Source: Acidobacteriota bacterium
Lineage (GTDB): Bacteria; Acidobacteriota; Terriglobia; Acidiferrales; UBA7541
Assembly: GCA_003225315.1 (NCBI GenBank)
Contig: QHZD01000007.1
Location: 1-35,244 of the forward strand
DNA: 35,244 nt
Direction of reading: 5' to 3'
Numbering within the stretch: position 1 is the first letter of the stretch; every line of letters starts with the position of its first letter. Position numbers and translations under genes: made by a program. Of the stretch, positions 6,763 to 27,849 are shown one piece after another. The notes beneath the pieces are model-generated. The model was given only the letters and a program-made list of their open reading frames with translations. It had not been told where the DNA came from and ran no database searches.

Positions 6763-6922
6763 TCTGGCCCACAGGAGGAAAAAGGAAGCACTCAAGTAGA
6801 GAGGAGGACTCGAGACAATCAACAAAATTCATCGACACCCATCCCGATATGGCGCGATGTCACCCAGTGAAGGAAACGTCAGCCCAGCTACGGAAATAGT
6901 TAGCAATCATGGGGGAAGTCCG

Positions 6923-7366: not shown

Positions 7367-7514
7367 AGCCCGACTCTGTTTCGATTGAGGGTCGCAGGGA
7401 GCTGTGAGAAGCGACTTAGTCCGCTTGGACAACGGACATCTATGACCTCCAAATTGCGGCCTCGGCGACTTGGATGAACTTCAAGGTGACTGTCCGAAGA
7501 GTCGGAGGAGAATT

Positions 7515-9525: not shown

Positions 9526-11262
9526 ATGAGAGCATTGTACCTTCCTAGTTTGCCCAGAAATCCCGAACGTCATCAGGAACAATTGGATCAGACAACGGTT
9601 ATGGGAGCGCGGGTGTTTGGGTGGACCGCTCTCTGCGCCTTACTTGAATACGGAACGTACGACGCTTACTTTGTACCGGGGCTTACAGACCAAAAGAAGG
9701 AGGAGTTGATTGAAGACGGCTTGACCGCGGACAGCGTCAAAAGATTAGTTGCCGTTCCTATTGGAAGCAAGTTGCCAATTACGAATTCTGACCAAATCGT
9801 CCTGACGACCTTCGATCCACAATTACGAACGCTGGCAACAATCCGTCGAAAACTCCAGCGACCTGATGCACCCGTGTGTGGATTAATCCACTCCATCAAC
9901 TCGGAACGCGTCGTCTTTGCGGTCTTACAGCATTACTTTGCGGGACTCTGCGAAGCCGATCTCCTTTTTTGTTCCAGTAGGGCCGGAATGAGAACGATCG
10001 ACGTATATATCGAGGAGGTCGGTCGGCTGTTGCTACCGAACATAACATATCGGCCGCGTCGAGTTCTTGTCCCCCTAGGCGTCCCGATTCCACTCCTGGA
10101 GCCTGAGCATCGGATCAACTTGCGCCAACTGCTAAACATTGGAGCACAGGAAACCATAACTCTTTTTTTTGGTCGTCTTTCACAGATGAGCAAGGGCGAC
10201 TTAGGGCCCATGCTTATCGCTCTATCATTGCTATCCCGCAGAGAAGCTCACACCCATTTGGTAATTGCAGGTGACGATACGCAAACGAATGAAGCGCGTC
10301 GTTTGAAAGCTCTGGCGAACGAATTGGGCTGTATTCAGAACTTGACGATATGGCCGAATCCATCCGCAAGAGACAAACACATGCTGTATTCCGGCGCCGA
10401 TATTTTCGTATCGCCCAGCGACAATATACAGGAAACCTTCGGATTGACCGTTGCAGAGGCACTATCCTATGGCCTTCCGGCTGTGGTCTCCGACTGGGAC
10501 GGGTACCGCGACATAGTGAGTGACGGTGAGACCGGATTCTTAGTTCCATCATTGTTCCCCTCAAGCTTGGAAACCCTCGAGGTAAGCGACTGCAGGATAT
10601 CAATGGTAGAAGAAGATTCTTTGGCACAATCCACGACCATCGACATCCCCGTCTTATCTGAGAAGATCCAAAGCCTTTTACACAATCCAGCGCTTCGAAG
10701 GCAAATGGGACGGGCAGCAAGGCAATCTGCAGAAAAGCATTACAGTTGGCCGGTGATTGTAAAACGGTATGAAGAAGTCTGGGGAGAATCGATACAGGCG
10801 GCAAAAACTGCCCCGTGCGAGGAGGATCTTGCGAGTGCAGTATTCCGCATGTCTCTTGAGAAGAGTTTTGGTCATTTTGCCACGGGAAAGCGAAATCCGC
10901 ATTGCAAGTGTTTCATCACAGCCGAGGGACGAGAATGGTTGAAACGGCCGGCTCGATTCTATTTCCTCTGCCATTTGTACGATCCCCCAACTCCGCAGAG
11001 ATTCAACCAGATGCTGCGCGAAATCGCTGCTCGTCCTGGTATCCCGGCTACGAAAGTGGTCGAGACATTGGGCGGGAACGGCGATCACGTATCGACCGGT
11101 GATGCACAATGGAGTCTTGGGCGACTGTTCAAGTACGGACTGGTGGCGAGCACCGAGGAATGTAGCGTCACCGGCGACCAGAGCGGCACTCTGCAAGCCG
11201 TGACTCGTGATTTCGGAAACGGCACCACCGGCTCGACAGAAAGTTCTGGGACGAATCGTTGA
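9526..11262 (+). CDS. GT4-family glycosyltransferase of the lasso cluster
   Basis: 578 residues with a GT-B fold, family GT4. The acceptor-side N-terminal domain covers about residues 1-205. The nucleotide-sugar domain begins near ETITLFFGRLSQMSKGDLGP, followed by HLVIAGDD and DIFVSPSDNIQETFGLTVAE ALSYGLPAVVSDWDGYRDIV, which includes the E-x7-E type motif of retaining GT4 enzymes. About 170 C-terminal residues (from TAPCEEDLASAVFRMSLEKS on) lie beyond the catalytic fold and may be a substrate-binding extension. The start ATG directly follows the stop of a 10-codon upstream ORF. The 3' end overlaps the second RRE gene by 56 bases. A tailoring enzyme that attaches a sugar to the peptide is the simplest role, but a cell-surface glycan role is possible. 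Confidence 0.85.
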   Translation: MRALYLPSLPRNPERHQEQLDQTTVMGARVFGWTALCALLEYGTYDAYFVPGLTDQKKEELIEDGLTADSVKRLVAVPIGSKLPITNSDQIVLTTFDPQLRTLATIRRKLQRPDAPVCGLIHSINSERVVFAVLQHYFAGLCEADLLFCSSRAGMRTIDVYIEEVGRLLLPNITYRPRRVLVPLGVPIPLLEPEHRINLRQLLNIGAQETITLFFGRLSQMSKGDLGPMLIALSLLSRREAHTHLVIAGDDTQTNEARRLKALANELGCIQNLTIWPNPSARDKHMLYSGADIFVSPSDNIQETFGLTVAEALSYGLPAVVSDWDGYRDIVSDGETGFLVPSLFPSSLETLEVSDCRISMVEEDSLAQSTTIDIPVLSEKIQSLLHNPALRRQMGRAARQSAEKHYSWPVIVKRYEEVWGESIQAAKTAPCEEDLASAVFRMSLEKSFGHFATGKRNPHCKCFITAEGREWLKRPARFYFLCHLYDPPTPQRFNQMLREIAARPGIPATKVVETLGGNGDHVSTGDAQWSLGRLFKYGLVASTEECSVTGDQSGTLQAVTRDFGNGTTGSTESSGTNR

Positions 11263-11581
11263 ATCAGAGTTGGTTCGTAGGTTTGGTCCAAAGGCGCGGA
11301 CGGTAGGCATGAACGTATCAGGAGTAGCGTTTCTGGTGTCACAACCAGATGGCAAGGCCACGTTAGAAGTCGCTGGCCGCCCTGTGTTTGAACTAAATCC
11401 CGTGGCGGCCCTCATTTGGGAGAACCTAGCAGTTGGCCTACCAACTCCCGAGATCATTGCTCAACTTGCTCGGCGATATAATATTCCGGAAGAACGAGCT
11501 GCGAGCGACGTAACGAACTTTATTAAACTTCTCACGCAATATTTGCTGCTTATCGATGATGCTCAGCTCACACCAGGGTGA
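11207..11581 (+). CDS. PqqD-like RiPP recognition element protein, copy 2
   Basis: Up to 124 residues from a GTG at 11207; an ATG at 11309 would give a 90-residue protein closer to the usual PqqD size. The core matches PqqD: VSGVAFLVSQPDGKATLEVA, then RPVFELNPVAALIWENLAVG LPTPEIIAQLARRYNIPEER, ending with DVTNFIKLLTQYLLLIDD. It overlaps the GT4 gene by 56 bases, so the two are probably translationally coupled and may work together, for instance the RRE docking the precursor to the glycosyltransferase. That is inference. It resembles the copy 1 RRE only in fold motifs. Confidence 0.8.
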   Translation: MISETAPPARQKVLGRIVESELVRRFGPKARTVGMNVSGVAFLVSQPDGKATLEVAGRPVFELNPVAALIWENLAVGLPTPEIIAQLARRYNIPEERAASDVTNFIKLLTQYLLLIDDAQLTPG

Positions 11582-11910
11582 CCGAACTGCAATTGTGGAC
11601 AGTTTTAGGTCAACGGCGAACCGTAAGACACCGTAGTGTCGGCGCGACGAAGTATCAGAAGAAAAGTATAGGGCATTCCCCACCAGACGCTTCGTCTTCA
11701 CTTCGTGTAGCATATCGGGACTTAATGGGCTGAGAGCATCGTCGTACTGACTCGAAGCGTTTTCACAGGGTAGTTGCAGTAATAAGTGCAAGTGACCCGT
11801 GTGCTTAGCCACACAACACGCCCGTCAAAGCGGAACCCGAGGCCGAAACTTCTCTTCCAGAACTACGAACAATTCTGGATATGGAGATCTGACCTTTCGG
11901 CCAAGTTTAT
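11582..11910. other. Gap of about 330 bp without a convincing gene
   Basis: The gap lies between the second RRE gene and repeat copy 2. A minus-strand frame spans 11438-11812 but overlaps the RRE gene and shows no domain. GACAC-cgta-GTGTC near 11626-11639 is only a five-pair hairpin. A plus-strand frame beginning at 11786 runs into the repeat and encodes AGSAYIGRNCVLFVIDG in the shared block (see the repeat entry). It may be a decayed gene. Confidence 0.35.
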
Positions 11911-12099
11911 GGCCGGATCCGCGTACATTGGCCGCAACTGCGTACTGTTTGTGATTGACGGAATGGTTGACCTTCCGCACCATCACGAACGAGATGAAAA
12001 ACATATCGAATGGCCCAGCCCTCTACACAGTGACCTGACCGATCGCAAGTTCGAGGATACGTAGAAATATCCGAGACTCTGGAGGTTCAGTTCGATGAC
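11911..12099. repeat. Direct repeat copy 2 (upstream of the B2/cyclase block)
   Basis: The diverged second copy of the 9324-9497 repeat. The last 29 bases (12071-12099) differ from copy 1 at only two positions, and CCGATCGCAAGTTC is identical. The first block lies in a frame from the ATG at 11909 that stays open for 51 codons (stop 12062-12064). It reads MAGSAYIGRNCVLFVIDG followed by DLPHHHERDEK. Several of the differences between copies in that block fall at third codon positions. The copy contains a stronger ribosome site (GGAGG at 12081-12085) than copy 1, nine bases before an ATG at 12095. Confidence 0.7.
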
Positions 12100-12555
12100 A
12101 GTAACGAACACAGCCGCTACAGTCGCCAGGAATACTGAAATTGACACTAAGGCTTCCGCGTTAGACTTTCGTCTGTACTCCATCGTTCTTTTGAAAAGAC
12201 AAGGGAAATCTTCCCTCAAGAACACTGTTTCGGCTTCGAGCTTCCGTGGAAGGCTGAAAAGCTCACCAAGTGAAGACGAGCGATGGCTTCGAAACCGCGG
12301 TCAAGACAGCGACTTGTACGCAATGCAGAAGCCGGGCTTGCGATTGGTGATTGGCGATGGTTGCCTAAATCACTCGAAACGCAGTTCGCGTGGCTCACGA
12401 AGTCAGCCGAATTGGGCAATCCCTTCGCCATGGAAAAGCTTGCAGACGAAAATGAAACACTTGGATCTTCGTACCCAACATCGAGTCTGGACTCGGCGAG
12501 ACTCTCACCCGGTTTGCGGAACTCTTGGCTCCTGGAGCCTGTATTCCAGAACTAA
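12095..12555 (+). pseudogene. Probable remnant reading frames between repeat copy 2 and B2
   Basis: The ATG at 12095 has a very good ribosome site and starts MTVTNTAATVARNTEIDTKA, then ALDFRLYSIVLLKRQGKSSL. Downstream, that frame becomes rich in Arg and Ser. A different frame (12283-12555) looks more protein-like, with AGLAIGDWRWLPKSLETQFA and WLTKSAELGNPFAMEKLADE, before stopping inside the ribosome site of the B2 gene. A frame switch of this kind suggests a gene broken by a frameshift, or two tiny ORFs. I recognise no family; the WLTKSAELGNPFAMEKLA stretch is faintly Sel1/TPR-like. Translation of the second ORF could couple to B2. Confidence 0.35.
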
Positions 12556-12569
12556 AGGAAGACTCGGTC

Positions 12570-12944
12570 ATGTCGTTTCTTGTTATTAAAGCGTATTTGA
12601 AGCTGATTCACTTTGATCTGTACTTGGCGCGTGGGAATTTCGCGGCACTGTACAACGAGGTCCGAAGATATCCCGTTGGGAAGAAAGCTCCATCTCCCGA
12701 AGCTGTCGAACGAATCTGTGCCGCGGTAGACATGGCTTGTATCTGGTATTGGAAAGAAGCGCTTTGCTTGCAGCGATCGGCGGCAGCCGCGTGTCTTTTG
12801 AAGCGGTACGGAGTACCTGCTCAAATGGTCATCGGTGCGCTGCAAATGCCCTTCAAGGCCCACGCCTGGGTTGAAGTCGATGGCCTCGTGGTCAACGATA
12901 AGCCGTATACGCCGGAACTCTATGGAGTGCTCGACAGGTGCTGA
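12570..12944 (+). CDS. Transglutaminase-like leader peptidase (lasso B2)
   Basis: 124 residues from the ATG at 12570, preceded by AAGGAAG (12555-12561). It matches the transglutaminase-like family that cleaves lasso leaders (Transglut_core3 type, as in McjB C-terminus). The catalytic Cys is in EALCLQRSAAAACLLKRYGV, the His in PFKAHAWVEVDG and the Asp in VVNDKPY. Only the protease domain is present; the RRE functions are on separate genes, as in split B1/B2 systems. It is followed after 31 bases by cyclase C1. It would cut the precursor just before the first core residue and hand the peptide to the cyclase. Confidence 0.9.
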   Translation: MSFLVIKAYLKLIHFDLYLARGNFAALYNEVRRYPVGKKAPSPEAVERICAAVDMACIWYWKEALCLQRSAAAACLLKRYGVPAQMVIGALQMPFKAHAWVEVDGLVVNDKPYTPELYGVLDRC

Positions 12945-12975: not shown

Positions 12976-14904
12976 ATGAGCGTGCAGTTTGGAAGATGGA
13001 ATTTTGAAGGCCGACCTCCTAGCCCTGACTTCGTCGAGAAGGTCAGTGCGACTCTTGCTCCGTATGGACCTGATAGCAATGAGACGTATTCCAAGGGTGG
13101 CGTACAGATCCTCTATCGCGCCTTCCGGACCACGAAAGAATCGCATCGCGAAACGCAGCCACACATATCTCCGTCGGGCGCGGTGATCACCTGGGACGGC
13201 CGCTTGGACAACCGCGCAGAGCTTATCAGCGAACTGAGAAACGTTCTGGCCTTCGATTCTACAGACGTTGCTATTGTTGCTGCGGCTTACGAAAAATGGG
13301 GCCCCAATTTCTATGCCAAACTTATCGGCGATTGGGCTCTTTCTATCTGGAGCCCTGTCGACCGGTCATTGCTCCTGGTCAAAGATCCCATCGGTACGCG
13401 CCATCTCTACTATTCGTTCGACAAGAATCAGGTCACCTGGAGCACAGTCCTCGATCCACTCGTCCGGTTTGCTGGCAAAACCTTCGCACTCAACGAAGAG
13501 TACATCGCCGGCTGGTTCTCTATGTTTCCGGCCGTGCATCTGACACCCTGCGTTGGTATCCATGCTGTCCCGCCGTCTTCGTCCGTGTTGCTCCGCCCCG
13601 GAAAGCACACGGTCAGCAAATATTGGGATTTCGATCCCACCAAGAGTATCCGTTACCGCACCGACGCCGAATACGAGGAGCACTTCCGCACCGTCTTCGC
13701 GAAAGCCGTCCAGCGCAGACTCCGTTCTGATCGCCCTATCCTCGCCGAACTTAGCGGCGGCAGAGACTCCTCCTCCATCGTCTGCATGGCCGATACCATC
13801 ATCGCCCGTGGGGCCGCCGAAAACCCGCGGCTCGATACGGTCTCAATGTACGACGATTCCGAACCCAATTGGAACGAGCGTCCCTATTTCACTAAAGTAG
13901 AGGAAAAGCGTGGCCGCACTGGTTGGCACATCAATGTCTGTCCGCAAGATCCGAAAGACAAGCCCACGCCCGAACCACCTCCCGAATCTCCTAACAGCCG
14001 CTTTGTGCCAACTCTTGGCTACGATGGGCGCCCTTCCCCCCAATTCGGGATGTGCTTGGTCTCGCAAGGGAATCGTGTCGTGCTCTCGGGAATCGGCGGC
14101 GACGAGACTATGGGTGGCGTGCCGACACCCACACCGGAACTCGAAGATCTTCTCGCAAGAGGACAATTCGGGGCGCTGGCTCATCAACTAAAAGTTTGGG
14201 CACTCGAGAAGAAAAAACCCTGGTTTCATCTGTTCTTTGAAGCCGGACGGAACTTTTTCCCTCCCGCGCTCGTGGGTATTCCGAAACACATGCGGCCCCC
14301 CGCATGGCTGCAGTCCAAGTTCGTGAAGCGCCATTGGGCGGCGCTGACCGGTTATCCATCCAGGACGAAGCTATTCGGCCCTTTGCCGAGCTTCCAAGGA
14401 AATGTTGCCACACTCGATGCGCTGCGAAGGCAACTGGCGCGCACCGCTTTGCCATTCGAACCGTCCTTCGAGAAACGCTATCCCTATCTGGACCGTGGCT
14501 TGCTGGAGTTCATGTTCGCCATACCCCGTGAGCAACTGGTGCGCCCGACCCAGCGCCGTTCCCTCATGCGCCGCGCACTCGTCGGCATCGTTCCGGACGA
14601 AATCTTGAACAAGAAGAGGAAGGCGTTTGTCGCCCGGTCGCCTCTGGTGCGTATTTCGAAGGAATGGACTCATTGGGCGGAGATGACCCAGCACATGGTC
14701 AGCAGTTCGCTCGGAATCGTGGACTCGGAACGTGTTCTTGAGGCCTTGCAGAAGGGGCGCCGTGGCGAAGAAGTCCCCACGATCACCTTGATGCGGACGC
14801 TCTTTCTCGAAGAGTGGCTCCGGGATCTCCGCAAGCTGGGGATTGTGAATCTGCACACAACGCAGAAGGCGGAGCTGGCCTGGCAGGCTTCGATACAAGG
14901 CTAG
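12976..14904 (+). CDS. Asparagine-synthetase-like lasso macrolactam synthetase C1
   Basis: 642 residues. The N-terminal glutaminase-like domain starts MSVQFGRW, so it lacks the Cys2 nucleophile of true asparagine synthetase B; DGRLDNRAELISEL and GDWALSIW are recognisable remnants of that fold. The C-terminal ATP-pyrophosphatase domain has the P-loop S260-G-G-R-D-S-S and the later motif LSGIGGDE (D376, E377). This fits the lasso cyclase role: adenylating the side chain of the ring Asp/Glu and joining it to the core N-terminus. Arg at the variable position of the P-loop (SGGRDS) is unusual, since that position is usually hydrophobic (Met, Leu or Ile). It is a close tandem paralogue of C2, 30 bases downstream. 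Confidence 0.9.
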   Translation: MSVQFGRWNFEGRPPSPDFVEKVSATLAPYGPDSNETYSKGGVQILYRAFRTTKESHRETQPHISPSGAVITWDGRLDNRAELISELRNVLAFDSTDVAIVAAAYEKWGPNFYAKLIGDWALSIWSPVDRSLLLVKDPIGTRHLYYSFDKNQVTWSTVLDPLVRFAGKTFALNEEYIAGWFSMFPAVHLTPCVGIHAVPPSSSVLLRPGKHTVSKYWDFDPTKSIRYRTDAEYEEHFRTVFAKAVQRRLRSDRPILAELSGGRDSSSIVCMADTIIARGAAENPRLDTVSMYDDSEPNWNERPYFTKVEEKRGRTGWHINVCPQDPKDKPTPEPPPESPNSRFVPTLGYDGRPSPQFGMCLVSQGNRVVLSGIGGDETMGGVPTPTPELEDLLARGQFGALAHQLKVWALEKKKPWFHLFFEAGRNFFPPALVGIPKHMRPPAWLQSKFVKRHWAALTGYPSRTKLFGPLPSFQGNVATLDALRRQLARTALPFEPSFEKRYPYLDRGLLEFMFAIPREQLVRPTQRRSLMRRALVGIVPDEILNKKRKAFVARSPLVRISKEWTHWAEMTQHMVSSSLGIVDSERVLEALQKGRRGEEVPTITLMRTLFLEEWLRDLRKLGIVNLHTTQKAELAWQASIQG

Positions 14905-14934
14905 CCGCCTGTGGGTTTGGTAGGAGAGCAAGTC

Positions 14935-16911
14935 ATGAGTGTGCAGTTTGGAAGATGGAATTGGGGAAACCAGCCGCCTGCACCGGACTATATCGAAAGA
15001 GTCAACGCAACTCTCGCTCCATATGGGCCCGACAGCAATGAGTCTTATTCGATGGGCGGTGTAAAGATCCTCTATCGCGCCTTCAACACCACCAAGGAAT
15101 CGCATTTCGAAAGGCAGCCGCATATCTCCGCATCCGGCGCCGTGATCACCTGGGATGGCCGTTTGGACAATCGCGCCGAGCTCATCAGCGAGCTGCGCGA
15201 GTTCTTGACCATCAGCTCCACGGACATTGAAATCGTTGCGGCGGCGTTCGAACGGTGGGGCGACAGGTGCTTCGGCAAGCTCATTGGGGACTGGGCGCTC
15301 TCGATCTGGAATCCGCGCGAGCGCTCTTTGTTGCTCGCCAAGGATCCCATTGGCACGAAACATCTCTACTACTCGATGGAGAAGGATCACCTTACGTGGA
15401 GCACTATTCTCGATCCGCTGGTCCTGTACGCGAGCAGAACCTTCGAAATCTGCGAAGAGTACATTGCCGGCTGGTTCGCCACGATGTTTCCCGCCGCGCA
15501 TCTGACACCGTACGTCGGCATCCAGGCCGTCCCACCATCCTCGTCGGTGCTGATCCGCAGTAGAAAAAAGCATGTCATAAACAGGTACTGGGATTTTGAT
15601 CCAGGCAAGAGAATACGCTATCGCACCGACGCCGAATACGAAGAGCACTTCCGCTCCGCCTTCTTCACGTCCGTCCAGCGCAGACTCCGCTCGGACCGCC
15701 CCGTACTCGCCGAACTTAGCGGCGGCATGGACTCTTCCTCCATCGTCTGCATGGCGGACCTCATCATCGCTGGCGCACACACCGATTGCCCGCGCCTGGA
15801 CACGGTCACTTGGTACGACGGGTCCAACCCAAACTGGGGTGAACTTCCCTACTTCACGAAAGTTGAAGAAAGGCGCGGCTGCGTCGGTCACCACATCGAT
15901 GGCCGTTCTTTAAGAAGGGATAGCTCACAAAAACGTTTCGGAGCCGAATTTGAAAGCGATCGCTTTACAGCGACTCCGATTGCAAATAATGGCCAATCCG
16001 AGTTTTTTAAGCAGAATGCCGCATACATCATGTCACGGGGATATCGTGTCACGCTCTCCGGAATCGGAGGAGAAGTCACAGGCGACGGCGTGCCTACAGC
16101 AACGCCAGAACTCCAGAATCTCCTGGCCAGAGCACGATTCTTCACACTCGCTCATCGGCTGAACGCCTGGGCCGCGAAGATGGGAGAATCTCGGCTCTCT
16201 TTGCTTTGGGAAGCTGTACAAGGATTCTTCTCGTCTCGCGTAAACGTGCTCAAAGAGATGCACCCGCCTCACTGGCTTCATCCCAGCTTCGTTCGTCGGA
16301 ATCGTAATGCCTTTCGGGGCTATCCACTCAGAGTGAAACTGTGCGGTCCTTTGCCAAGCTTCCAAGACCATACTGATAAGTTGGGGGCCAATCGGAGGTT
16401 CGTGGCGCATTGCCACCTCAGTTCAGAATTGCTCCGCGAAGTGCGCTATCCCTACTATGACCGAGATTTTCTGGAATTCGTGTACGCCATTCCTCGGGAA
16501 CAGATCGTCGGCGTGGGACAGCGCCGTTTTCTGATGAGACGTGCCCTTGTCGGCATTGTCCCGGGCGAGATCCTGAGCCGAAGAAAGAAAGAGACTGTTC
16601 CGCAAAAGACGGCGAAAAGCATCTCGGTAGAATGGCCCAGCGTGACTGAGATCGGGCAACTCATGATCAGCAGTTTCGTGGGGGTGATCGATCTAGATCG
16701 ATTTGAAGAAGCATTGCAGAAGGCTCGGCGTGACGAGGAAGCTCCCATCGAGAGCCTGAAGCGTACATTGAAGCTTGAGGCCTGGCTACGTCACCTCATG
16801 ATTCAAGGAGTCCTGACAAACGCAATGGCGGCAAGAAGACACAGCTATTCCTCTGCTCTTAGAGCGAAGGAAGTCTCAGCCCCCGCTCAGTCCAAAAGTT
16901 CAGCTAGCTAG
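14935..16911 (+). CDS. Asparagine-synthetase-like lasso macrolactam synthetase C2
   Basis: 658 residues from the ATG at 14935, with a ribosome site (TAGGAGAGC) just upstream. Like C1 it begins MSVQFGRWN and lacks the glutaminase nucleophile Cys. The pyrophosphatase P-loop is canonical (S262-G-G-M-D-S-S). The second motif is changed: LSGIGGEV (E380, V381) where C1 has LSGIGGDE. The N-terminal halves of C1 and C2 are very similar and the middle (about residues 310-370) diverges strongly, consistent with tandem duplication followed by specialisation. Possible roles are a heteromeric cyclase, a second ring-closing step or a partly inactive copy. The precursor gene begins 43 bases after the stop. 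Confidence 0.9.
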   Translation: MSVQFGRWNWGNQPPAPDYIERVNATLAPYGPDSNESYSMGGVKILYRAFNTTKESHFERQPHISASGAVITWDGRLDNRAELISELREFLTISSTDIEIVAAAFERWGDRCFGKLIGDWALSIWNPRERSLLLAKDPIGTKHLYYSMEKDHLTWSTILDPLVLYASRTFEICEEYIAGWFATMFPAAHLTPYVGIQAVPPSSSVLIRSRKKHVINRYWDFDPGKRIRYRTDAEYEEHFRSAFFTSVQRRLRSDRPVLAELSGGMDSSSIVCMADLIIAGAHTDCPRLDTVTWYDGSNPNWGELPYFTKVEERRGCVGHHIDGRSLRRDSSQKRFGAEFESDRFTATPIANNGQSEFFKQNAAYIMSRGYRVTLSGIGGEVTGDGVPTATPELQNLLARARFFTLAHRLNAWAAKMGESRLSLLWEAVQGFFSSRVNVLKEMHPPHWLHPSFVRRNRNAFRGYPLRVKLCGPLPSFQDHTDKLGANRRFVAHCHLSSELLREVRYPYYDRDFLEFVYAIPREQIVGVGQRRFLMRRALVGIVPGEILSRRKKETVPQKTAKSISVEWPSVTEIGQLMISSFVGVIDLDRFEEALQKARRDEEAPIESLKRTLKLEAWLRHLMIQGVLTNAMAARRHSYSSALRAKEVSAPAQSKSSAS

Positions 16912-16954
16912 CAAGCTGCGTACGCAAATCCATCAAAGAAGGGAGGTGAACACC

Positions 16955-17104
16955 ATGAAATATGAAAATCCAGAACTGACTGCATTGACGCCCGCGATCA
17001 ATGCTATTCAGGGTACCGGACCAAATAAAGGAAGCACAACGCAACCACTGGATAGCCAATTCCAAAACGAATCTACCAATGGTTACGCAGACTGGGAAAG
17101 CTAA
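16955..17104 (+). CDS. Putative lasso-peptide precursor (lasso A), 49 aa
   Basis: A short gene with the strongest ribosome site in the cluster (GGGAGGTGA, 16941-16949). The leader begins MKYENPELTAL, matching the lasso leader motif Y-x-x-P-x-L read by RRE proteins. It continues TPAINAIQGTGPNK. The only start that leaves a small residue first and an acid at ring position 7-9 in the classic way is Gly26: GSTTQPLD closes as an 8-residue ring to Asp33. The tail is SQFQNESTNGYADWES, with bulky Phe36, Tyr44 and Trp47 as possible plugs and a C-terminal Ser. Unusual: Asn, not Thr, stands at leader position -2, and the gene is last, not first, in the operon. The cleavage site is a prediction. Confidence 0.8.
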   Translation: MKYENPELTALTPAINAIQGTGPNKGSTTQPLDSQFQNESTNGYADWES

Positions 17105-17112
17105 ACCAGGCT

Positions 17113-17148
17113 CTGTCGGAGCGTCCAAAACAGCGGGCGCTCCGACAG
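17113..17148. terminator. Strong hairpin, probable bidirectional terminator
   Basis: CTGTCGGAGCGTCC (17113-17126) pairs with GGGCGCTCCGACAG (17135-17148), 14 pairs including one wobble, around an 8-base loop. It begins eight bases after the precursor stop codon and ends 11 bases before the stop of the convergent S9 peptidase gene. It is followed by TCTATTAATAG and lacks a long T-run. Its position between convergent operons strongly supports termination for both. Confidence 0.7.
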
Positions 17149-17159
17149 TCTATTAATAG

Positions 17160-19487
17160 TTAGTTGGGCTGAAGATATTTTTCAAACCAAGCGAGCATAC
17201 GATTGATGTGGTCCACTTGATTTACAAAACCTCTCGGCGCGTGACTCTCGCCATCGTATTTGGCGTACTCGACCTCTTTCCCAAGCCTTCGAAGACTCAC
17301 AAAAATCTGATCGCCTAGAAATGACGGGACTACGGGGTCACCGGCCACGTGCACAATCAACAATGGCGTCTGGACTCTATCCAGATAAAAGAACGGGGAA
17401 TTCTCGATATATCTTTCTCGAACTTGCCAGGGAGTTCCACCCATGGCGTCTTGGCTGGATTCCAACGAGGTTCCGAACGCTGCTCCGTCTTTTTTCATCC
17501 CGCCGTATGTAGCAACTAGATCTCCCATGCCGTCCACGCTAACGGCAGCCTTGAACCGCTTGGTCTGGACGATCAGTGCCAGCGTGCTGTAGCCTCCGTT
17601 GCTGTGTCCCATCACTCCTAACCGCTCTGGATCCGCTATCCCCATCTCGATGACCTTATTCACTCCTGGCAGCACCGTCTTTGCCAAATCAGCCATCGGT
17701 GTTCCTTCGTGCGCTGGTGAATCTGGCAGGAGCACTGCATAGCCACGGGTGGCCAACAATTGTGGATGTACGGCTGCATTACTATTAAGCCCGAACAGAT
17801 CGAAACTCTCGGAGAGATGCGCCCCACCATAAACGCAAACGACGAGAGGGTAGCGCTTCCCTTCCTGATAGTCGGAGGGTAATAGCAAAGCTCCTCGCAA
17901 CCGCTCGCCATCGTCGCTGAGCCAGTCAATAAGCCGGGCGGCCCCCAACTTATAGTTGTCGAACTGAGGATTGAGATGTGTGAGCCGCCGAGGGTGTTTA
18001 AAAGTTGCATCATTCAGCCAGAGATCAGAATCACGCTTGGCATCTTCTGCCGCATACGCTAATTGTTTTCCATTTCGCGCCACCGCAATTGGGCGCTGCA
18101 TGGCCGTGCAAGTGTAACACTCACCGTTTTCTACAAGCTTGACACTTTCCCCGTTCTCCAAGTTGATCCTGTAGAACGCGTCCTGTTTCCCGACATCGTC
18201 ATGCGCTACAATTACGGTCGAGTTTCCACCGTCCGTCCATAACAAGTCATGGGATTGTGAAATGGACAAATTGATCTGATGATTTGGGATGCGAGCGATC
18301 TGCCATGCTTTGCCTTCGCTGACGGAAGCCCGCCATAATGCTCCATCATGGAGAAAATAAGTATAATGGCCACTCCTGTCCCACAGTGGAACTGATGAAT
18401 AACCACGACGTGATTGCTGCAAAGGCAAGAATTTTGATATATTTTGTGGAGGTCCTCCCTCTGCGTTGACGATGTAGCAGTCACGAATCTTCTCCTCGGG
18501 CCCATCCGGTTGATAGCTGATCAGCTGCATGTCCGGCGACCAACTGAAGTCCCCATCGCTGAGTCGGACGTCCGCCGCGACGACTCGTTCTTTCATCGTC
18601 GAAAGTGCTAGTACCACAAGGTCGTAAAGTAACTGCTGTGATCCCGGTTTCTCAAACCGTTTCTCAACTGCATACGCGACGCGTGAACTATCGGATGAAA
18701 TCTTATATGCTTGAATTCTCTGATTGTGAACCAATACTCGAGTCTGGCCCGTAACAACGTCAACCTTAACTAGGTCCCGCAAGAATCGATTCAGATCCCA
18801 AGGATCGGATTGCGGACCTTCCCTGCCGCGCGGCCCGGTGAAACTCGATTGGTACAGATGCAGAGTTGGACCTTGCTCTTTTTGTCCGGCAGGTTTCTCG
18901 GGTTCGGTGTCGGACTCTTTCCTTTTCTCAGACGCGCCAGCAGACAAGCGCTGCGGTTTTACAGTCACAAAGATACTGCGACTATCAGGCGTCCACTTCA
19001 TCGGCTGCCATGTGTCGACATCGATGTCTGGAACTTTGTTCAAGGCATCCTTCGTCGCATCCCAAATCCACATTAGCGCCCGCCCACCCCCCTCACGATC
19101 CGAGAGAAACGCAAGGAATCTTCCATCAGGAGACCATGTCGGGTGCCAGTTCTTGCCTTTTCCGCTCGTGAGGTTCCTTGCCTCGCCTGTTTCGATATTC
19201 AAGAGCCAAACGTTCTCACCCCTCACATACTCGGAAACCACTCTCCGAGGCTCCGGTTCTTTTTCATTCGGCTTGGCTTCTTCTTCACCTTCGACACCGT
19301 AAACCAACCATTTGCCATCAGGAGAAAACTCGATGGAAGACAATTGCGCAAAAGAGCGCTCCCGAAGAACGTCCTCTACGGGTAATGCGCTAGCCTGTTG
19401 CGCAAATGCGATTTCTGGCGTAATGCAACCAATGCATCCAGGAGCAAGGGTAAGGAACAAGACGAGCTTCTTTTTTCTCGGAAACAT
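17160..19487 (-). CDS. Secreted S9-family serine peptidase, putative lasso-peptide isopeptidase
   Basis: About 775 residues from the ATG at 19487, which gives a clean signal peptide (MFPRKKKLVLFLTLAPG ... AFAQ); upstream in-frame ATGs at 19508 and 19604 are less likely. Residues ~30-490 are beta-propeller-like, with repeats such as SSIEFSPDGKWLVYGV and HPTWSPDGRFLAFLSD. The C-terminal alpha/beta-hydrolase domain shows GHSNGGYS (Ser629), AGDPVVPS (Asp717) and GESHAPRG (His749). Prolyl-oligopeptidase-type enzymes of this layout beside lasso clusters (AtxE2 type) open the isopeptide bond. It is convergent with the cyclase-precursor operon and lies downstream of the receptor gene. A general dipeptidyl peptidase function is the main alternative. 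Confidence 0.85.
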   Translation of the reverse strand: MFPRKKKLVLFLTLAPGCIGCITPEIAFAQQASALPVEDVLRERSFAQLSSIEFSPDGKWLVYGVEGEEEAKPNEKEPEPRRVVSEYVRGENVWLLNIETGEARNLTSGKGKNWHPTWSPDGRFLAFLSDREGGGRALMWIWDATKDALNKVPDIDVDTWQPMKWTPDSRSIFVTVKPQRLSAGASEKRKESDTEPEKPAGQKEQGPTLHLYQSSFTGPRGREGPQSDPWDLNRFLRDLVKVDVVTGQTRVLVHNQRIQAYKISSDSSRVAYAVEKRFEKPGSQQLLYDLVVLALSTMKERVVAADVRLSDGDFSWSPDMQLISYQPDGPEEKIRDCYIVNAEGGPPQNISKFLPLQQSRRGYSSVPLWDRSGHYTYFLHDGALWRASVSEGKAWQIARIPNHQINLSISQSHDLLWTDGGNSTVIVAHDDVGKQDAFYRINLENGESVKLVENGECYTCTAMQRPIAVARNGKQLAYAAEDAKRDSDLWLNDATFKHPRRLTHLNPQFDNYKLGAARLIDWLSDDGERLRGALLLPSDYQEGKRYPLVVCVYGGAHLSESFDLFGLNSNAAVHPQLLATRGYAVLLPDSPAHEGTPMADLAKTVLPGVNKVIEMGIADPERLGVMGHSNGGYSTLALIVQTKRFKAAVSVDGMGDLVATYGGMKKDGAAFGTSLESSQDAMGGTPWQVRERYIENSPFFYLDRVQTPLLIVHVAGDPVVPSFLGDQIFVSLRRLGKEVEYAKYDGESHAPRGFVNQVDHINRMLAWFEKYLQPN

Positions 19488-19622
19488 CAGCTTCTCTTTT
19501 GGATTCATCGCAACGACGAAAGCTGATTCAATGCCCCAGAGTCTGGATATAGCCTTCCCTCTGTGGATAAAGCCGTGCCATTTCAGGGGAAGACACGATT
19601 TCATGTGCCCTTCCAGATTGAA

Positions 19623-22600
19623 TTAGAAAACTAATCTCAGAGCAAACTGCATGGAGCGTGGCCCGCCTTGTTGGTAAAGCGGGCTCAGGACTCCCAGCGT
19701 ACTTGCAAGCGTGCCTGTAGCCTGGCCGAATTGCCGGTTTGTGCAACCAGGTACGCCTGGAGTGCCACCACAGAACGCGCTAATGGTTCCGAAATTCGGA
19801 TGATTGAAAATATTAAATGCCTCGGCACGGAACTGGAGCTTCAGCCCTTCATGGATTGGAAAATCCCGCCGGAGCGCCAGATCCATCTGCCAAGCTCCAA
19901 AACCCCTCACAAAGTTGCGAGGCGCGTTTCCCAGACCAGAAGCCGGAGGAGCGAACGCATTGGGGTTAATCGCGCGGCCTCCCGGACATCCTTGTCCCGG
20001 AAGAAGGTCTCCCATCCCTTGGAGAACAGAGGTGCAATTGGAGCCATACAAATAGACGGACTGGCCCGAAACTAGATCCAGCCCGGAGTTGAACGATTGT
20101 CCCGTCGCAGAATCAAAGTTCTGATTTCCGTTTAGCGTAACCGGAAAACCAGTTCTCGCGGTTAGACGGTCGTCGAGACCCCAATTGTGAAACACGGCCC
20201 GTTGAAACCTGTTCTCTCCAAGATTCGGTAGGTCGTAAGAAAAAGCAGTCGAAAAATTATGCCGAACATCGAAATCGCAATTACCCCGTTGATATCCCAA
20301 CGTATAATTTTGTGACCCGTAGTCCATGCAGTGCGACCACGTATACGAAGCCAACGTCGTTAGCCCCCTGCTCAGTCTCCGACGGAACTGAATCTGCAGC
20401 GCGTCGTAATCCGACATCAGTCCACTATCGACAAAGAGAAACGTCTTTGCATTTGGGTTGCTGGGCGTTGAAATTTGAGCTTCTCTCAGCAATCTCCCTG
20501 CGTGCGCGCCTACATAGGAAACCGTAAGAACCTGTGAGCTGCCCAGCGCCTGCTCGATGCTGGCGTTCCACTGAAGCGTATACGGCAGCTGCAGATGCGC
20601 TGGGAATACAATAGGTTGAGCGCCGTACGAACCCGGCACAGGCGGGTTCACAATGACAGGAGAAGGCGCTGCAGGCGAAGGAAACGCTCCAGGCTGAACC
20701 TTTACTGCCTGGAAACCTGGCCCATCGAAGCCGAACGATCCCTGCTGTTGACCGGTATCGAAGAAGACACCGCCACCGCCCCGCACAACTATTTCGCGGC
20801 CCGGCGTGCCGCGGAGAATATATGCGGCACCAAGGCGCGGTGCAAAGTTGTACCAGGCAGTCTGCCATAATGGCGTGCCCTGCGGCGCCAGCGCCCACGT
20901 ATTGGGGCCGGACCCTTGAACCGTATAAGCGTTCGAACCTTGAGTTACACCGGGCGCCGGGTTTACATCCCACCTCAGTCCCAAGGAGAGGTTTAGCTTG
21001 TGTGACATTCTCCATTCATCCTGCGCAAACGCCGAGAAGTTTGTGTACAGCGGGTAGAAAGGAACAGTACTAACGGCTATTGTGAGGGCCCGGTTCGCTT
21101 GGACAGCAGCCACGCTAAAGTAGTCAAACAGGTGGGCTGAATTAGGTGGAGTCGCAATCGGAGTAAGCCGACGATAATCGATCCCAAACTTGAAGTGATG
21201 ACGTCCCCAAGAGAGGTCCACTGTGTCCACGAGATTCCATTGTCTTTGAACCGCTGATATCCGCTGCTGAAGCATAACAATGCGATACCCAGCATACTGA
21301 AGGATGACTTCTGGCTGGCTGTCAACGCTGGACCCTGTGAGCTGCGCCAGATCGACAGGTGTGCTGCCCCCGAATGAATCGATGACAGCACGAGCCGTCA
21401 CTTCGTTCGAACTGTAATTGAGGCGAAACTCGTTGCTGAGGCGGCTCGCGAAGACGCTACTGGCGCCCGCTGTATAGCTCCGCGGGGTATAGGCTGTAGT
21501 TTGGCTCATTGATGGATTTCCACCGGTGGGCTGTGTTTCCCGAATCGTCGACTTGGAAGGGACGTTGCTGAATCGGAAGAAGAGCCTCAGCTTATCGTTC
21601 ACGACTTGGTCAAGCCGGACGCTCGTCGAATCGATCGAACTCGGGTTCGACCAACTTCCGATAAATTGAGCAACCCCATGCGCCGTGTCGTCTATCCCAT
21701 TGAGGCTTTGCACAGGGAAAGCATTCAGCACCTGGTTCAGAGGTGCAACCGTGTTCGCGCGCAGAGCAGCATCCGGCACGAAGGTTACTGTTGCTGCCTG
21801 TGGCGCAACCAGACGCAGCCCCTCATACGAAACAAAGAAGAATGTCTTGTCTTTACCGTTGTACAGGCCAGGAATTCTTACCGGTCCGCCCAGTGTGCCG
21901 CCGAAATCGTTCTGGCGAAGGGCAGGTTCCGGCTTACCAAAGTAATCGTTGAACCAGTCCTGGGCATCAATCGCCCCATTACGCAAGTAGTCGTATGCCG
22001 TGCCATGCCATTGATTGGTGCCTGATTTTGTCTCGAACGCAAATTGGCCACCCGGATTGCGCCCATACTCAGCGGAATAGGTCGAACTCTGCACACGAAA
22101 CTCCTGGAGATCATCAATGGAAACGAGAGCCTGCGTGGTTCCCAAAGCCGTCGCCGTAGGCACTGAACCGCTAGGGCCTGCCCCGATCACCATATTCAAA
22201 CCCGCAGTTGCCCCTCCATTAGCGCTTACACCGTCCACGGTGTAATAGTTCGATTCCGGTCGCTGGCCATTCACACTGAACTCACCAGTCATTCCAAGGC
22301 CGGTCACTCCTGGGTTATTAGCTTGGGGCGTTTGCGTTACAACCCCCGGCGTGAGCAGGATTAAATCCTGGAAGCTGCGCCCATTCAGTGGCATGTTCTT
22401 CACATAAGTCTGATCAACTACAGTGCTCACTGCTGCCGACTCGGTGTTAATCAGGGGTACCCCGCCCTCCACAGTGACCGTGTCAGAAATCGGACCCACT
22501 GGAAGGGTGAAACCGATTGCTTTGGCATCTTGAACATTCAGCGTGATGTCGGGATGAACGATCGTCTTGAATCCTTGCTTGGACACCCGAATGTGATATG

Positions 22601-22823
22601 TGCCCGAAGGAACATTCGGCACGGAGTAGATCCCCTCGTCATTTGTTTCGGTCGTGTAGTGAACGTTCGTGGCATCGTTAATGACTTCGACGCTTGCATT
22701 TGGGATTGCTGAACCTGAAGTGTCGCGCACTTGGCCATTCACGACGGCCGTGGGCGTCTGCGCTAGAGAGGTAAGTGACGAACACAAAAAGAAGAAAACG
22801 AGCACACCAATGCGCTCTTTCAC
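19623..22823 (-). CDS. Oar-like TonB-dependent outer-membrane receptor
   Basis: About 1066 residues. I chose the GTG at 22823 because GAGAGG lies just upstream and it starts the signal peptide (VKERIGVLVFFFLCSSLTSLAQ-type); the open frame reaches 22868. After the signal comes a carboxypeptidase-regulatory-like domain (VNGQVRDTSGSAIPNASVEV), then the plug (NMPLNGRSFQDLILLTPGVV and YTVDGV). A long beta-barrel follows, ending in an aromatic residue (RSMQFALRLVF), the outer-membrane C-terminal signature. Oar-type receptors are characteristic of Acidobacteriota. Its place between sigma/anti-sigma genes and the S9 peptidase suggests it imports or senses the lasso peptide or a related peptide. The gene order matches the logic of proteobacterial lasso catabolic loci. 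Confidence 0.92.
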   Translation of the reverse strand: MKERIGVLVFFFLCSSLTSLAQTPTAVVNGQVRDTSGSAIPNASVEVINDATNVHYTTETNDEGIYSVPNVPSGTYHIRVSKQGFKTIVHPDITLNVQDAKAIGFTLPVGPISDTVTVEGGVPLINTESAAVSTVVDQTYVKNMPLNGRSFQDLILLTPGVVTQTPQANNPGVTGLGMTGEFSVNGQRPESNYYTVDGVSANGGATAGLNMVIGAGPSGSVPTATALGTTQALVSIDDLQEFRVQSSTYSAEYGRNPGGQFAFETKSGTNQWHGTAYDYLRNGAIDAQDWFNDYFGKPEPALRQNDFGGTLGGPVRIPGLYNGKDKTFFFVSYEGLRLVAPQAATVTFVPDAALRANTVAPLNQVLNAFPVQSLNGIDDTAHGVAQFIGSWSNPSSIDSTSVRLDQVVNDKLRLFFRFSNVPSKSTIRETQPTGGNPSMSQTTAYTPRSYTAGASSVFASRLSNEFRLNYSSNEVTARAVIDSFGGSTPVDLAQLTGSSVDSQPEVILQYAGYRIVMLQQRISAVQRQWNLVDTVDLSWGRHHFKFGIDYRRLTPIATPPNSAHLFDYFSVAAVQANRALTIAVSTVPFYPLYTNFSAFAQDEWRMSHKLNLSLGLRWDVNPAPGVTQGSNAYTVQGSGPNTWALAPQGTPLWQTAWYNFAPRLGAAYILRGTPGREIVVRGGGGVFFDTGQQQGSFGFDGPGFQAVKVQPGAFPSPAAPSPVIVNPPVPGSYGAQPIVFPAHLQLPYTLQWNASIEQALGSSQVLTVSYVGAHAGRLLREAQISTPSNPNAKTFLFVDSGLMSDYDALQIQFRRRLSRGLTTLASYTWSHCMDYGSQNYTLGYQRGNCDFDVRHNFSTAFSYDLPNLGENRFQRAVFHNWGLDDRLTARTGFPVTLNGNQNFDSATGQSFNSGLDLVSGQSVYLYGSNCTSVLQGMGDLLPGQGCPGGRAINPNAFAPPASGLGNAPRNFVRGFGAWQMDLALRRDFPIHEGLKLQFRAEAFNIFNHPNFGTISAFCGGTPGVPGCTNRQFGQATGTLASTLGVLSPLYQQGGPRSMQFALRLVF

Positions 22824-22976
22824 GCTTACCTCTCTTTCAAATTTTGTCTGGCGCGGGGATTCACCCAATATACGGAGCTACACGAAAAAAGGAACCAACG
22901 CGTAACTCCAATGTCCTGTGAAATAAATAGCTGCTTCGAGGGTTCGGCAGGAAAAAAATCAAAGAAACACTGCAAA

Positions 22977-24269
22977 CTAAGGGTGATTAGGCTCTTCACC
23001 CAGATAGGCGAACAGCACCTGTTTTCCCCGCGGTGCCGGACTTGTGCCGCTGGGCTCGACAGTCACAAATACCGCGTTGATCTTCTTGAGGGCCTCCGGG
23101 TTATCGAATCGCAACACCCAGCGTTTATTCGTGGTGTTATCCACGTACATCACACCCAAATTAAGAGCGGTATTGCGATCCGGGCCGCGCAGACCCCAAG
23201 CCTGAAAGGTGCTTGCGTTCCTTACCCCAGGTTCTTGGTCAAGGTCGTAGGCATAGAAAATCAAGGACTTACCCCTCGTGTAAAAAACCCTACCGTATGG
23301 TTTTTTTCTCTTCCCGTTCCCCCCAACATCGGATACCTCTGCGATGTATAGATCCCGCGCGCCCATTAGGTCGCGAATATCTCTGTCGGAAGCCAAGAAG
23401 CGCTGCTGTTCATCAATAGTTGAATCTTTGTCTTTTAGCAACTGCGACATGAAGTGAATTTGGTTCTCAAGACTTGTCACCCGGACCGCGTCACTTGCCT
23501 TTGCTTGCTCTAACGCATCGAGCTTCTTCTGTGTTGCCGCAAGGAGTCCTTGCTCATCTTCGACCTTGCGAACGAGTGTATTCCGCTCTGCAGAAGCCTC
23601 TTCCGTCTGCTCGCGCGCCTCGTGGTCTGCGGCCAGGAACGTAGCCTGTAGTGCTTCATTCTGTTTTCGCTGTTCCTTGAGTTGGGCTCTCAATCCAGCG
23701 ATGACAAGCTCTCGGTCTCTCAAGCTTGACTCCAGTTGGTCTCTTTCATGGCCAAGGCTTTCAAGGTGCGCTCGCCAAGGCGCGTTGTCACTCTTTGATT
23801 GCTCGACTACCTGAGATTGCTCTCGACCTCGTTTCAAGCCGATTCCATAAATGTACATTCCAAGAACGGCTGCGAGAATCAAAGAGGCAGCGGACGCCAA
23901 TTGGACGCGTAGATTTGATGGAAGGAAGAAGTTCGCTAGACGTGCCTCCGAAGTCCATCGAGGAGGGTTCGTCTTGTCCCTCACGTGCTCGGATGGACCT
24001 CTAGTCCCAGCCTGTGTTTCAATGGCGGCGTAAAGCCTTTTCTCGCCCTTTTGAATAGACCATGGCACAGAATCAAGTGTCAGGTCATCGCCAGCCTCGT
24101 CGGGTATGAGGGATAGCCCACTTCTCAGAATTGTTCGATACTCTCCTACGCTTTGTCGGCACTGGAGGCATTCGCTGAGGTGGTCCTCCAAAGATTTCGT
24201 CTCCTCAACCGACAATTCGCTGCTCAAATAGTCCAGGCAAAGGTCATCACTAAGGTGCAGTGGACTCAT
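22977..24269 (-). CDS. Zinc-finger anti-sigma factor with coiled coil and RskA-like domain
   Basis: 430 residues. The N-terminus has the anti-sigma zinc finger H-x3-C-x2-C (DHLSECLQCRQS), which sequesters ECF sigma factors. A single membrane helix follows near residue 135 (LASAASLILAAVLGMYIYGI). Then comes a long, charged coiled coil of about 150 residues (RAHLESLGHERDQLESSLRD and further heptads). The C-terminal ~100 residues look like the anti-sigma-K (RskA) domain: FYAYDLDQEPGVRNASTFQA WGL ... VTVEPSGTSPAPRGKQVLFA. It overlaps the sigma gene by ATGA (24266-24269). The coiled coil probably spans the periplasm towards the outer-membrane receptor, an inference from length. Confidence 0.88.
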   Translation of the reverse strand: MSPLHLSDDLCLDYLSSELSVEETKSLEDHLSECLQCRQSVGEYRTILRSGLSLIPDEAGDDLTLDSVPWSIQKGEKRLYAAIETQAGTRGPSEHVRDKTNPPRWTSEARLANFFLPSNLRVQLASAASLILAAVLGMYIYGIGLKRGREQSQVVEQSKSDNAPWRAHLESLGHERDQLESSLRDRELVIAGLRAQLKEQRKQNEALQATFLAADHEAREQTEEASAERNTLVRKVEDEQGLLAATQKKLDALEQAKASDAVRVTSLENQIHFMSQLLKDKDSTIDEQQRFLASDRDIRDLMGARDLYIAEVSDVGGNGKRKKPYGRVFYTRGKSLIFYAYDLDQEPGVRNASTFQAWGLRGPDRNTALNLGVMYVDNTTNKRWVLRFDNPEALKKINAVFVTVEPSGTSPAPRGKQVLFAYLGEEPNHP

Positions 24270-25015
24270 TGGAACCTGCTCTTCGCTTGAAGTTTAGTTC
24301 CCGGCTGAGCCGCTTGGCTCGACGCCGGTTTGTCCACGTGGAACACGATCCGTCTCAGACGTTGGATGCCTCGATAGGCGTGGTGCTTCGCGTTTCCGGA
24401 GGAGCAACCCAACTTCTCAGCGATTTCGCTGAAGGTGTAACCTGCAACGCGCATCTGGAATGTCAGCTGCTGTTCTCTCGGAAGACTCGCCAACAAAGCT
24501 CTAATGTCGTCAGCGGAGATTCTCTGCTCCATAGGACCTTGCTCTTCCATTAAATCAGACGGGATGGCAGCGCTTTTCCTTTCCCCATTTCCCTGGCGAA
24601 ATCCATGCCGGGCCCTCAGATAGTCGCGCCAGTCAAAGCACTTGTGGTAAGTCAACTGGAGCAGCCAAGAGCGGGCAGTGCCTTTCGTCGCATCGAAGGC
24701 CCCGGACCTTTTATATAAGGAGAGAAAGACCTCGTGAACCAGGTCTTCAGCTTCGATGGGGTCTCTTAATATACGGGCACAGACTGAATAAACCACTCTG
24801 GCATAACGCCGGTAGAGAAGGCCGAGCGCAGATATGTCCTTTTCCTGGAGTCGAAATAGAAGAGCCTCATCGCTCGTGTTGGCTTCTGGAACTCCGACAT
24901 CTTCGCTGTGTGATTCCGACCCGTCGCAAGAGGCCGCAGAAATCTGTTCATGCGCGCCGTTGCCGTTACGTTTTACAAAGACTCCTGGAAAGTAACGCGC
25001 AGCGGGGGAGCTCAT
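24266..25015 (-). CDS. ECF-type RNA polymerase sigma factor
   Basis: 249 residues. Region 2 covers about residues 48-125: DEALLFRLQEKDISALGLLY RRYARVVYSVCARILRDPIE AEDLVHEVFLSLYK. Region 4 covers about 165-225: LLASLPREQQLTFQMRVAGY TFSEIAEKLGCSSGNAKHHA YRGIQRLRR. The first ~45 residues and last ~20 are low-complexity extensions. Its stop overlaps the anti-sigma start, so the two are co-translated. It likely drives the receptor and peptidase genes downstream when the anti-sigma factor is inactivated. No confident ECF promoter consensus was found upstream of the receptor by eye. Confidence 0.92.
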   Translation of the reverse strand: MSSPAARYFPGVFVKRNGNGAHEQISAASCDGSESHSEDVGVPEANTSDEALLFRLQEKDISALGLLYRRYARVVYSVCARILRDPIEAEDLVHEVFLSLYKRSGAFDATKGTARSWLLQLTYHKCFDWRDYLRARHGFRQGNGERKSAAIPSDLMEEQGPMEQRISADDIRALLASLPREQQLTFQMRVAGYTFSEIAEKLGCSSGNAKHHAYRGIQRLRRIVFHVDKPASSQAAQPGTKLQAKSRFQ

Positions 25016-27804: not shown

Positions 27805-27836
27805 TTGGGTTCGGCCCCCGAGGGGGCCGAACCCAA
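27805..27836. repeat. Perfect 15-bp inverted repeat before the recombinase gene
   Basis: TTGGGTTCGGCCCCC (27805-27819) and GGGGGCCGAACCCAA (27822-27836) are perfectly complementary with only GA between them. It ends four bases before the ribosome site of the recombinase gene and lies in the divergent gap to the PilZ-like gene. A hairpin there would form in the mRNA leader and may limit recombinase expression. A role as a recombinase binding site or REP-like element is also possible. Confidence 0.75.
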
Positions 27837-27849
27837 AATGGAGGAACCA

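Follow-up and report, generated by a model that had tools for sequence, protein, structure and literature searches.

The 49-codon gene that we describe here is, as judged from its sequence and its relatives, a real lasso-type precursor gene in a lasso cluster of the window, by which we mean the whole 35,244-nucleotide stretch of acidobacterial DNA that was analysed, and its product is probably a lasso-type macrolactam with Lys25 and Asp33 as the ring partners. We consider this ring the most likely one because the spacing between a lysine and an acidic residue holds in 57 of the 58 family precursors that lack an acid at the standard position, because the distance between that lysine and the leader floats, and because a control set of precursors with Thr at position -2 obeys the standard rule of an acid at core positions 7-9.

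The reading frame comprises 49 codons and a stop and encodes the peptide MKYENPELTALTPAINAIQGTGPNKGSTTQPLDSQFQNESTNGYADWES (Table 1). Both the reading of the frame and its homologues bear out the original prediction of a 49-codon gene with a strong ribosome site and a YxxPxL leader, here YENPEL at residues 3-8, and they support its view that the operon closes at its 3' end with a lasso-type precursor that poses an unusual cleavage problem. The sequence downstream is also as it had been described, with GSTTQPLD at residues 26-33 followed by a 16-residue tail (residues 34-49) that includes F36, Y44 and W47. The gene lies 43 bases beyond the second cyclase gene, and GGAGG-type ribosome sites precede most precursors of the family. 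An identical peptide is encoded in the related genome G007, where the gene differs by one synonymous change (AAA/AAG at Lys25); because of this and because homologues occupy the same place in sister clusters, the frame is not a chance one. The 49-residue peptide gave no Pfam match (E 0.001) and no NCBIfam match (E 1). The hairpin between the convergent precursor and S9 peptidase genes lacks a T tract and is terminator-like only.

Table 1. Coordinates in the window of the precursor, its parts and the genes of the surrounding cluster.
Feature	Position	Strand	Basis
Second PqqD-like protein, 182 aa	5907-6455	+	Profile match; start of cluster
ABC exporter (D)	7470-9293	+	Pfam and NCBIfam scans
Family 4 (GT4) glycosyltransferase	9526-11262	+	Pfam scan
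B1, PqqD-like RRE	11207-11581	+	PF05402, 47.1 bits (cut-off 23.4)
B2, leader peptidase (transglutaminase-like)	12570-12944	+	NF033537, 75.2 bits (cut-off 33)
First cyclase (C1); SGGRDS and GGDE intact	12976-14904	+	Profile matches and alignment
Second cyclase (C2), asparagine-synthetase-like; SGGMDS kept, GGDE replaced by GGEV	14935-16911	+	Profile matches and alignment
Ribosome-binding site GGGAGGTGA	16941-16949	+	Ends 5 bases before ATG
Precursor gene (A), 49 aa	16955-17104	+	ORF reading and homologues
Leader by register, residues 1-19, ending Ile18-Gln19 (Ile at -2)	16955-17011	+	YxxPxL register (PMC10368454) and conservation
Linker Gly20-Asn24	17012-17026	+	Family comparison
Proposed ring segment Lys25-Asp33 (acid at Lys+8)	17027-17053	+	Family Lys-acid spacing
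Conserved C-terminal block N38-E39...G-Y-A-D-W-E48	17066-17098	+	Family alignment
Hairpin, 14 pairs, between convergent A and S9 genes	17113-17148		z -5.5
S9 peptidase, candidate lasso isopeptidase	17160-19604	-	Pfam, sequence and fold search
Outer-membrane beta-barrel protein, TonB-receptor-like, with carboxypeptidase-regulatory domain	19623-22868	-	Profile match
Putative anti-sigma factor	22977-24269	-	RskA_C match below its cut-off
Sigma-70 family (ECF-like) sigma factor	24266-25015	-	Profile match

The B2 start was chosen at an ATG, the scanned frame being longer and opening with TTG at 12525, and the C2 start was set by the family alignment within a frame that opens at 14911. Both cyclases exceed the cut-offs for PF00733 (Asn_synthase) and GATase, while their NF033535 scores (251 and 271 bits) fall far below the cut-off of 525, and the lasso-specific NCBIfam models score B1 below cut-off. 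The second PqqD-like gene adjoins that of an HTH_18 regulator (6857-7366); the end of the GT4 glycosyltransferase gene, whose product could glycosylate the peptide, runs into the beginning of the longest reading frame for B1; and a phage-type integrase gene lies beyond the cluster at 27805-28881.

The precursor belongs to an acidobacterial family, as its sequence relatives indicate. A homologue search of 95 genomes of the order returned clear homologues (E below 1e-5) in seven, the window's own included. That genome holds a second, paralogous two-cyclase cluster (L035; G000 contig C9, positions 32315-33197) whose four precursors stand in tandem and include two identical proteins, and G008, G013, G014, G015 and G018 carry three precursor homologues each. 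Two cyclase genes precede the homologues in the seven genomes; the exception is G014, where the contig starts inside a cyclase gene and the locus (L040) was counted as two-cyclase from that fragment and its peptides. One-cyclase relatives were added by B2 searches (68 of 95 genomes in the order, 90 of 396 in the phylum), and by scanning named genomes with an alignment of the cyclases, of which the best 80 of 94 were retained, giving 78 loci. The regions examined were those of 83 of the 93 places from the order search, plus the window's own, and 25 for the 115 places from the phylum search. Precursors were read from 26 loci and from the 78 named-genome loci with no condition on the core, and from L202 and L204 with a core condition. 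The final set, compiled by eye, holds 89 precursors from 59 clusters; identical or near-identical copies were dropped (one of L035, the middle one of L040, and one each of L204, L257, L258 and L262), as were loci that the two sets shared, such as G007, along with Thr(-2) precursors belonging to other cyclases and ORFs that lacked the family features.

These precursors share a layout of a near-fixed leader, a linker, a lysine, a variable stretch, an acid, a variable tail and a conserved end. The C-terminus reads N[DE]x3-5[GA]YxDWE in 18 of the 20 two-cyclase precursors and YxDWE in all 20, and the remaining precursors end in Y..[DW][EDN] in 46 of 69 cases. On the cyclase-gene strand, over 2.5-3.5 kb upstream and 2.2-2.6 kb downstream, every compiled precursor lies 3' of a cyclase gene except in the distant member L266, where it stands between B2 and C; the original prediction was right that the A gene comes last here, but last is the usual state in this family and not the exception. 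Its proposed family mark AIQGxxxxKG fares similarly, in that AIQ and K are family features and the two glycines are not.

Lasso rings are commonly predicted by taking the residue at a fixed distance from the leader and looking for an acid 7-9 residues on. YxxPxL spans positions -17 to -12, and Ile at -2 matters for B2 cleavage of the precursor BsfA (PMC10368454). The leader of the present family is nearly fixed, with Y..P followed by [IV]-x at register positions -2/-1: with Tyr fixed at -17, the strict register gives I or V at residue -2 in 63 of the 72 Lys-type members; leaders are shorter by one residue in nine of the 72, and allowing for this raises the count to 71 (L037a, shifted by hand, has Leu at -2). 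For the window peptide, the register makes Gly20 residue 1 and places Ile18 at -2, where Thr is common but not obligatory; the Asn originally assigned to -2 holds only if Gly26 is residue 1. A cut before Lys25 would put Pro23 at that position, and one after Lys25 would put Asn24 there.

By this register, an acid stands at core positions 7-9 in 31 of the 89 precursors, that of the strain Acidicapsa dinghuensis 4GSKX (L251) with an acid at position 9 among them, and is missing there in 58, from 39 clusters. The window peptide is among the latter, its acid being at +14 for the register cut and within 7-9 if the core began at Lys25 or Gly26; a standard ring on a core beginning at Gly20 or Gly22 is ruled out, since neither has an acid at 7-9. 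Our control drew on the other lasso clusters that these searches returned; its distinct precursors were selected for Thr at -2 with no condition on the core, and 29 of 30 have an acid at 7-9, the exception being a precursor in L107 with an acid at 10. The predicted residue 1 of these control precursors, which come from the same order, is often T, S, K, Q, A or N (non-Gly examples include L114 3101(-), L146 9953(-) and L162 7106(+)), so Gly is not required at that position.

What the 58 precursors share is a lysine (core positions 2-9) with D or E at +6, +7 or +8, found in 57 of them, L252 being the lone misfit, against a mean of 8.8 and a maximum of 20 in 2000 rounds of shuffled cores, a null that covers the Lys positions and not the choice of the +6 to +8 window, which was picked after seeing the data. 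Sliding that window gives 45 at +5 to +7 and 42 at +7 to +9. With one precursor per cluster, 38 of 39 fit (null mean 6.6, maximum 15, 5000 rounds), and strict register with Lys at 1-9 again gives 57 of 58. Other residues score lower as anchors of the acid (K 57, then S 21, G 20, T 19 and the rest fewer); seven members offer several Lys-acid pairs, of which the first was used, and the automatic family alignment puts some of the lysines in wrong columns. The spacing is +6 in 20, +7 in 17 and +8 in one of the one-cyclase members, and +8 in 12 and +7 in seven of the two-cyclase members. The linker varies from 1 to 7 residues among the 72 Lys-type members, and the acid lies 10-16 residues from the leader end, yet it tracks the lysine (r 0.91), with standard deviations of 0.55 and 0.48 for the K-acid spacing against 1.23 and 1.34 for the acid measured from the leader end. 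Counted inclusively, lysine through acid makes 7-9 residues; lasso rings have 7-9 residues (PMC8498205). On this sequence evidence, Lys25 and Asp33 look like a pair under selection, and the choice of Asp33 as the likely ring acid in the original prediction agrees with the conservation of D/E in relatives. Because 21 of the 31 precursors with an acid at 7-9 also carry a lysine at 2-9, the lysine may be a recognition residue and not a ring partner. Eleven of those 21 are Gly-x-Lys precursors with an acid at 8 or 9 (L043, L150, L161, L242, L244 and L262); these conform to the standard rule and may bridge the two states, or their lysine may serve recognition only.

The original prediction paired Gly26 with Asp33, so that B2 would cut Lys25|Gly26, with the lysine preceding the cut, and the Gly26 alpha-amine would close an 8-residue ring with a 16-residue tail. 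That pairing is unique only as long as Gly is required at residue 1. In its favour, an 8-residue ring and Gly1 conform to the standard, Gly follows the lysine in 17 of 72 members, and between tandem copies the linker evolves like the leader. Even so, the remaining members have T, Q, N, L, P, K, S, A, D, V, M, R or I after a constant Lys, so that of the two residues on whose conservation the prediction had been staked, Asp33 is conserved and Gly26 is not. A cut after Lys throughout the family would shrink the ring to 6 residues in 20 of the 57 non-canonical members that have the lysine and make proline residue 1 in 5 of 72, and we know of no lasso peptide with either property; it would also leave the conserved Ile(-2) register unused. 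Gly26 as ring residue 1 is thus probably wrong and the model as a whole quite improbable, with a Lys25|Gly26 cut being possible for the window peptide alone.

The register would be kept if B2 cut after Gln19 and the alpha-amine of Gly20 reacted with Asp33; the ring would then count 14 residues here and 10-16 in the non-canonical members, and an in vitro analogue containing a ten-residue ring has been mentioned (PMC8498205). We regard this as very unlikely: the constant lysine and its spacing from the acid are left unexplained, and Gly occupies +1 in only 24 of 72 members, with E, D, R, H and M among the others.

A ring between Lys25 and Asp33 could form by two routes that we consider about equally probable. 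The alpha-amine of Lys25 could react after a cut at Asn24|Lys25, giving a 9-residue ring, or its side chain could react after a cut at Gln19|Gly20, leaving a free 5-residue N-terminal extension. Applied across the family, the alpha-amine route yields rings of 7, 8 and 9 residues, which is the known range. This route is favoured by the divergence of tandem copies, because the linker changes like the leader and less than the ring and the tail, as if it were removed. Among ten non-overlapping tandem pairs, diverged sites number 8/48 in the linker, 18/170 in the leader, 26/62 in the ring (p 0.006) and 40/102 in the tail (p 0.008), these sites being few and the linker perhaps conserved for other reasons; the set leaves out L043, L150 and two pairs with L036a and adds L218, whose lysine was set by hand. 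All 13 equal-length pairs, some of them overlapping, give 12/59 for the linker, 34/80 for the ring, 50/130 for the tail and 36/221 for the leader. The side-chain route is favoured by the register, because Ile(-2) holds near register though nothing beside the lysine is conserved, and the Thr(-2) control lends it support by showing how strict the register is.

The cyclases bear on both the side-chain route and the prospect that no ring is made. On a quick tree with SH-aLRT support only, the paired cyclases group together in a single set of 17 rows (98), divided into C1 (nine rows, 99) and C2 (eight rows, 100); two Pyrinomonadaceae pairs (L247 and L253) fall outside it, and the rows of the window and L205 are near-copies. 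SGGRDS and GGDE are present in 9/9 C1 rows, and C2 has SGG[ML]DS in 8/8 and GGDE in 2/8 (L206 and L210). Among 44 single cyclases, SGGR occurs in one only (L202), and exact GGDE is missing in seven (L220, which has AGDE, L204, L246, L257, L258, L259 and L261). The differing motif changes of C1 and C2 (window 12976-16911; L035-L041 and L206-L211) suggest a division of labour or the decay of C2. We tentatively propose a nucleophile switch in one branch of lasso biosynthesis: the usual cut would fall after Ile-Gln, and the cyclase would join the side-chain amine of an internal lysine to an Asp/Glu that follows at a distance of 6-8 residues, so that the N-terminal extension stays free, with the cyclase of the window's branch duplicated into two partners that bear different motif changes and perhaps form an obligate pair. 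In a rival reading, C2 would be a pseudo-enzyme and no macrolactam would arise from this precursor, the peptide being linear or modified in some other way, or the cluster decaying. GGDE is absent from six of the eight C2 rows, C2 is frameshifted in L038/L211, and soil clusters that are possibly similar yielded no product on heterologous expression (PMC12670498). We nevertheless hold this outcome to be unlikely, given that C1 retains GGDE in every row, that the motif is not strict, as the seven single cyclases without it indicate, which weakens the decay reading of C2, and that the failed expressions, from which the peptidase genes had been omitted (PMC12670498), may be a host effect.

Genes for an APH-type phosphotransferase, a prolyl oligopeptidase or both are present in many one-cyclase clusters (L133:8058-11494, L164, L213-L223 and others), for the most part between B1 and B2, and tblastn (E 1e-8) found neither in the examined flanks of the two-cyclase clusters. 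The window has about 1 kb (11582-12569) without a convincing gene where many relatives hold these two genes, and this gap may be a remnant. We also considered the prolyl oligopeptidase as the enzyme that cuts at the lysine and rejected it: by sequence it is a prolyl endopeptidase (2bkl, E 4.6e-126), tblastn found none in the two-cyclase clusters or in several one-cyclase clusters that keep the lysine (L042, L147, L148, L152, L224 and L227, among others), and Pro precedes the lysine in only 6 of 72 members.

The S9 peptidase is a candidate lasso isopeptidase by sequence and modelled fold. A sequence search placed AtxE2 third (E 1.1e-17), and by both sequence and fold search the protein is nearer to S9 carboxypeptidase entries than to AtxE2 or SpI-IsoP. 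Its AlphaFold model, built from seven sequences, is of low confidence (mean pLDDT 61.3), and a Foldseek search with it returned the S9 fold with isopeptidases among the matches, though not first, SpI-IsoP having rank 11. The astexin and sphingopyxin systems include an isopeptidase and a TonB receptor, and, as in the window, they have an S9 peptidase (AtxE2, SpI-IsoP) and a TonB-type receptor beside the precursor; the A gene comes first in the astexin cluster and last in the window.

In the pathway that we infer from this operon, the RRE protein B1 would bind the YENPEL leader, B2 would remove it, and the C1/C2 pair would activate the Asp33 side chain with ATP and join it to an amine of Lys25. 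The product would then have a variable ring, presumably threaded, and its tail would close with the conserved N[DE]...GYADWE block. It would probably be exported by the ABC protein, and, by analogy with the astexin-type systems of Proteobacteria, it could be recognised by the adjacent outer-membrane receptor and its ring opened by the S9 peptidase. Graspetides contain side-chain to side-chain lactams made by an ATP-grasp enzyme; the window product would resemble them if the Lys side chain reacts, whereas the window cyclases are asparagine-synthetase-like, and no ATP-grasp ligase, the enzyme that would mark a graspetide cluster, was found among the 23 window ORFs scanned with Pfam.

Clusters like these and the Ile(-2) residue are already in print. 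The bsf cluster of Bradymonas sediminis has, like the window, split B1/B2 proteins, YxxPxL at -17 to -12 and Ile(-2), and Ile/Val(-2) also occurs in Acidobacteriaceae (PMC10368454). BsfA differs in having Gly1 and Asp8 in register, and its cluster includes a kinase, whereas the window has no acid at 7-9, a floating Lys-acid pair and two cyclases; tblastn found no kinase at the window cluster. The metagenomic acidobacterial BGC 482.1 runs PqqD, PqqD, phosphotransferase, B2, C and two A genes last, with one cyclase, as in our one-cyclase layout, against two in the window (PMC9064862). Its ring was guessed from a Gly near an Asp, which put Leu and Ser at -2 (PMC9064862); a Gly-based choice thus gave odd -2 residues, as Gly26 gave Asn here, a likeness drawn from the layout and the -2 residues. 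Group II BGCs have a split B and, in three cases, a prolyl oligopeptidase between core genes, like many of our one-cyclase clusters, a match drawn from the described gene layout, and no product was seen from them (PMC12670498). Metanodin, with Thr(-2), Asn1 and a standard ring, shows that residue 1 need not be Gly (PMC12670498). In the literature searched, which covers few subscription papers, we found neither the Lys-acid spacing nor paired cyclases described.

The standard rule for locating the ring fails for 58 of the 89 precursors of this acidobacterial family, and a rule of Lys followed by Asp/Glu 6-8 residues on fits 57 of those 58. If the lysine is indeed a ring partner, either B2 cuts at a lysine at a variable distance from the leader or a lasso cyclase uses a side-chain amine, neither of which was known before, to our knowledge. 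Cores of this kind would then have been mis-assigned and the wrong masses sought, which is a possible reason for failed searches.
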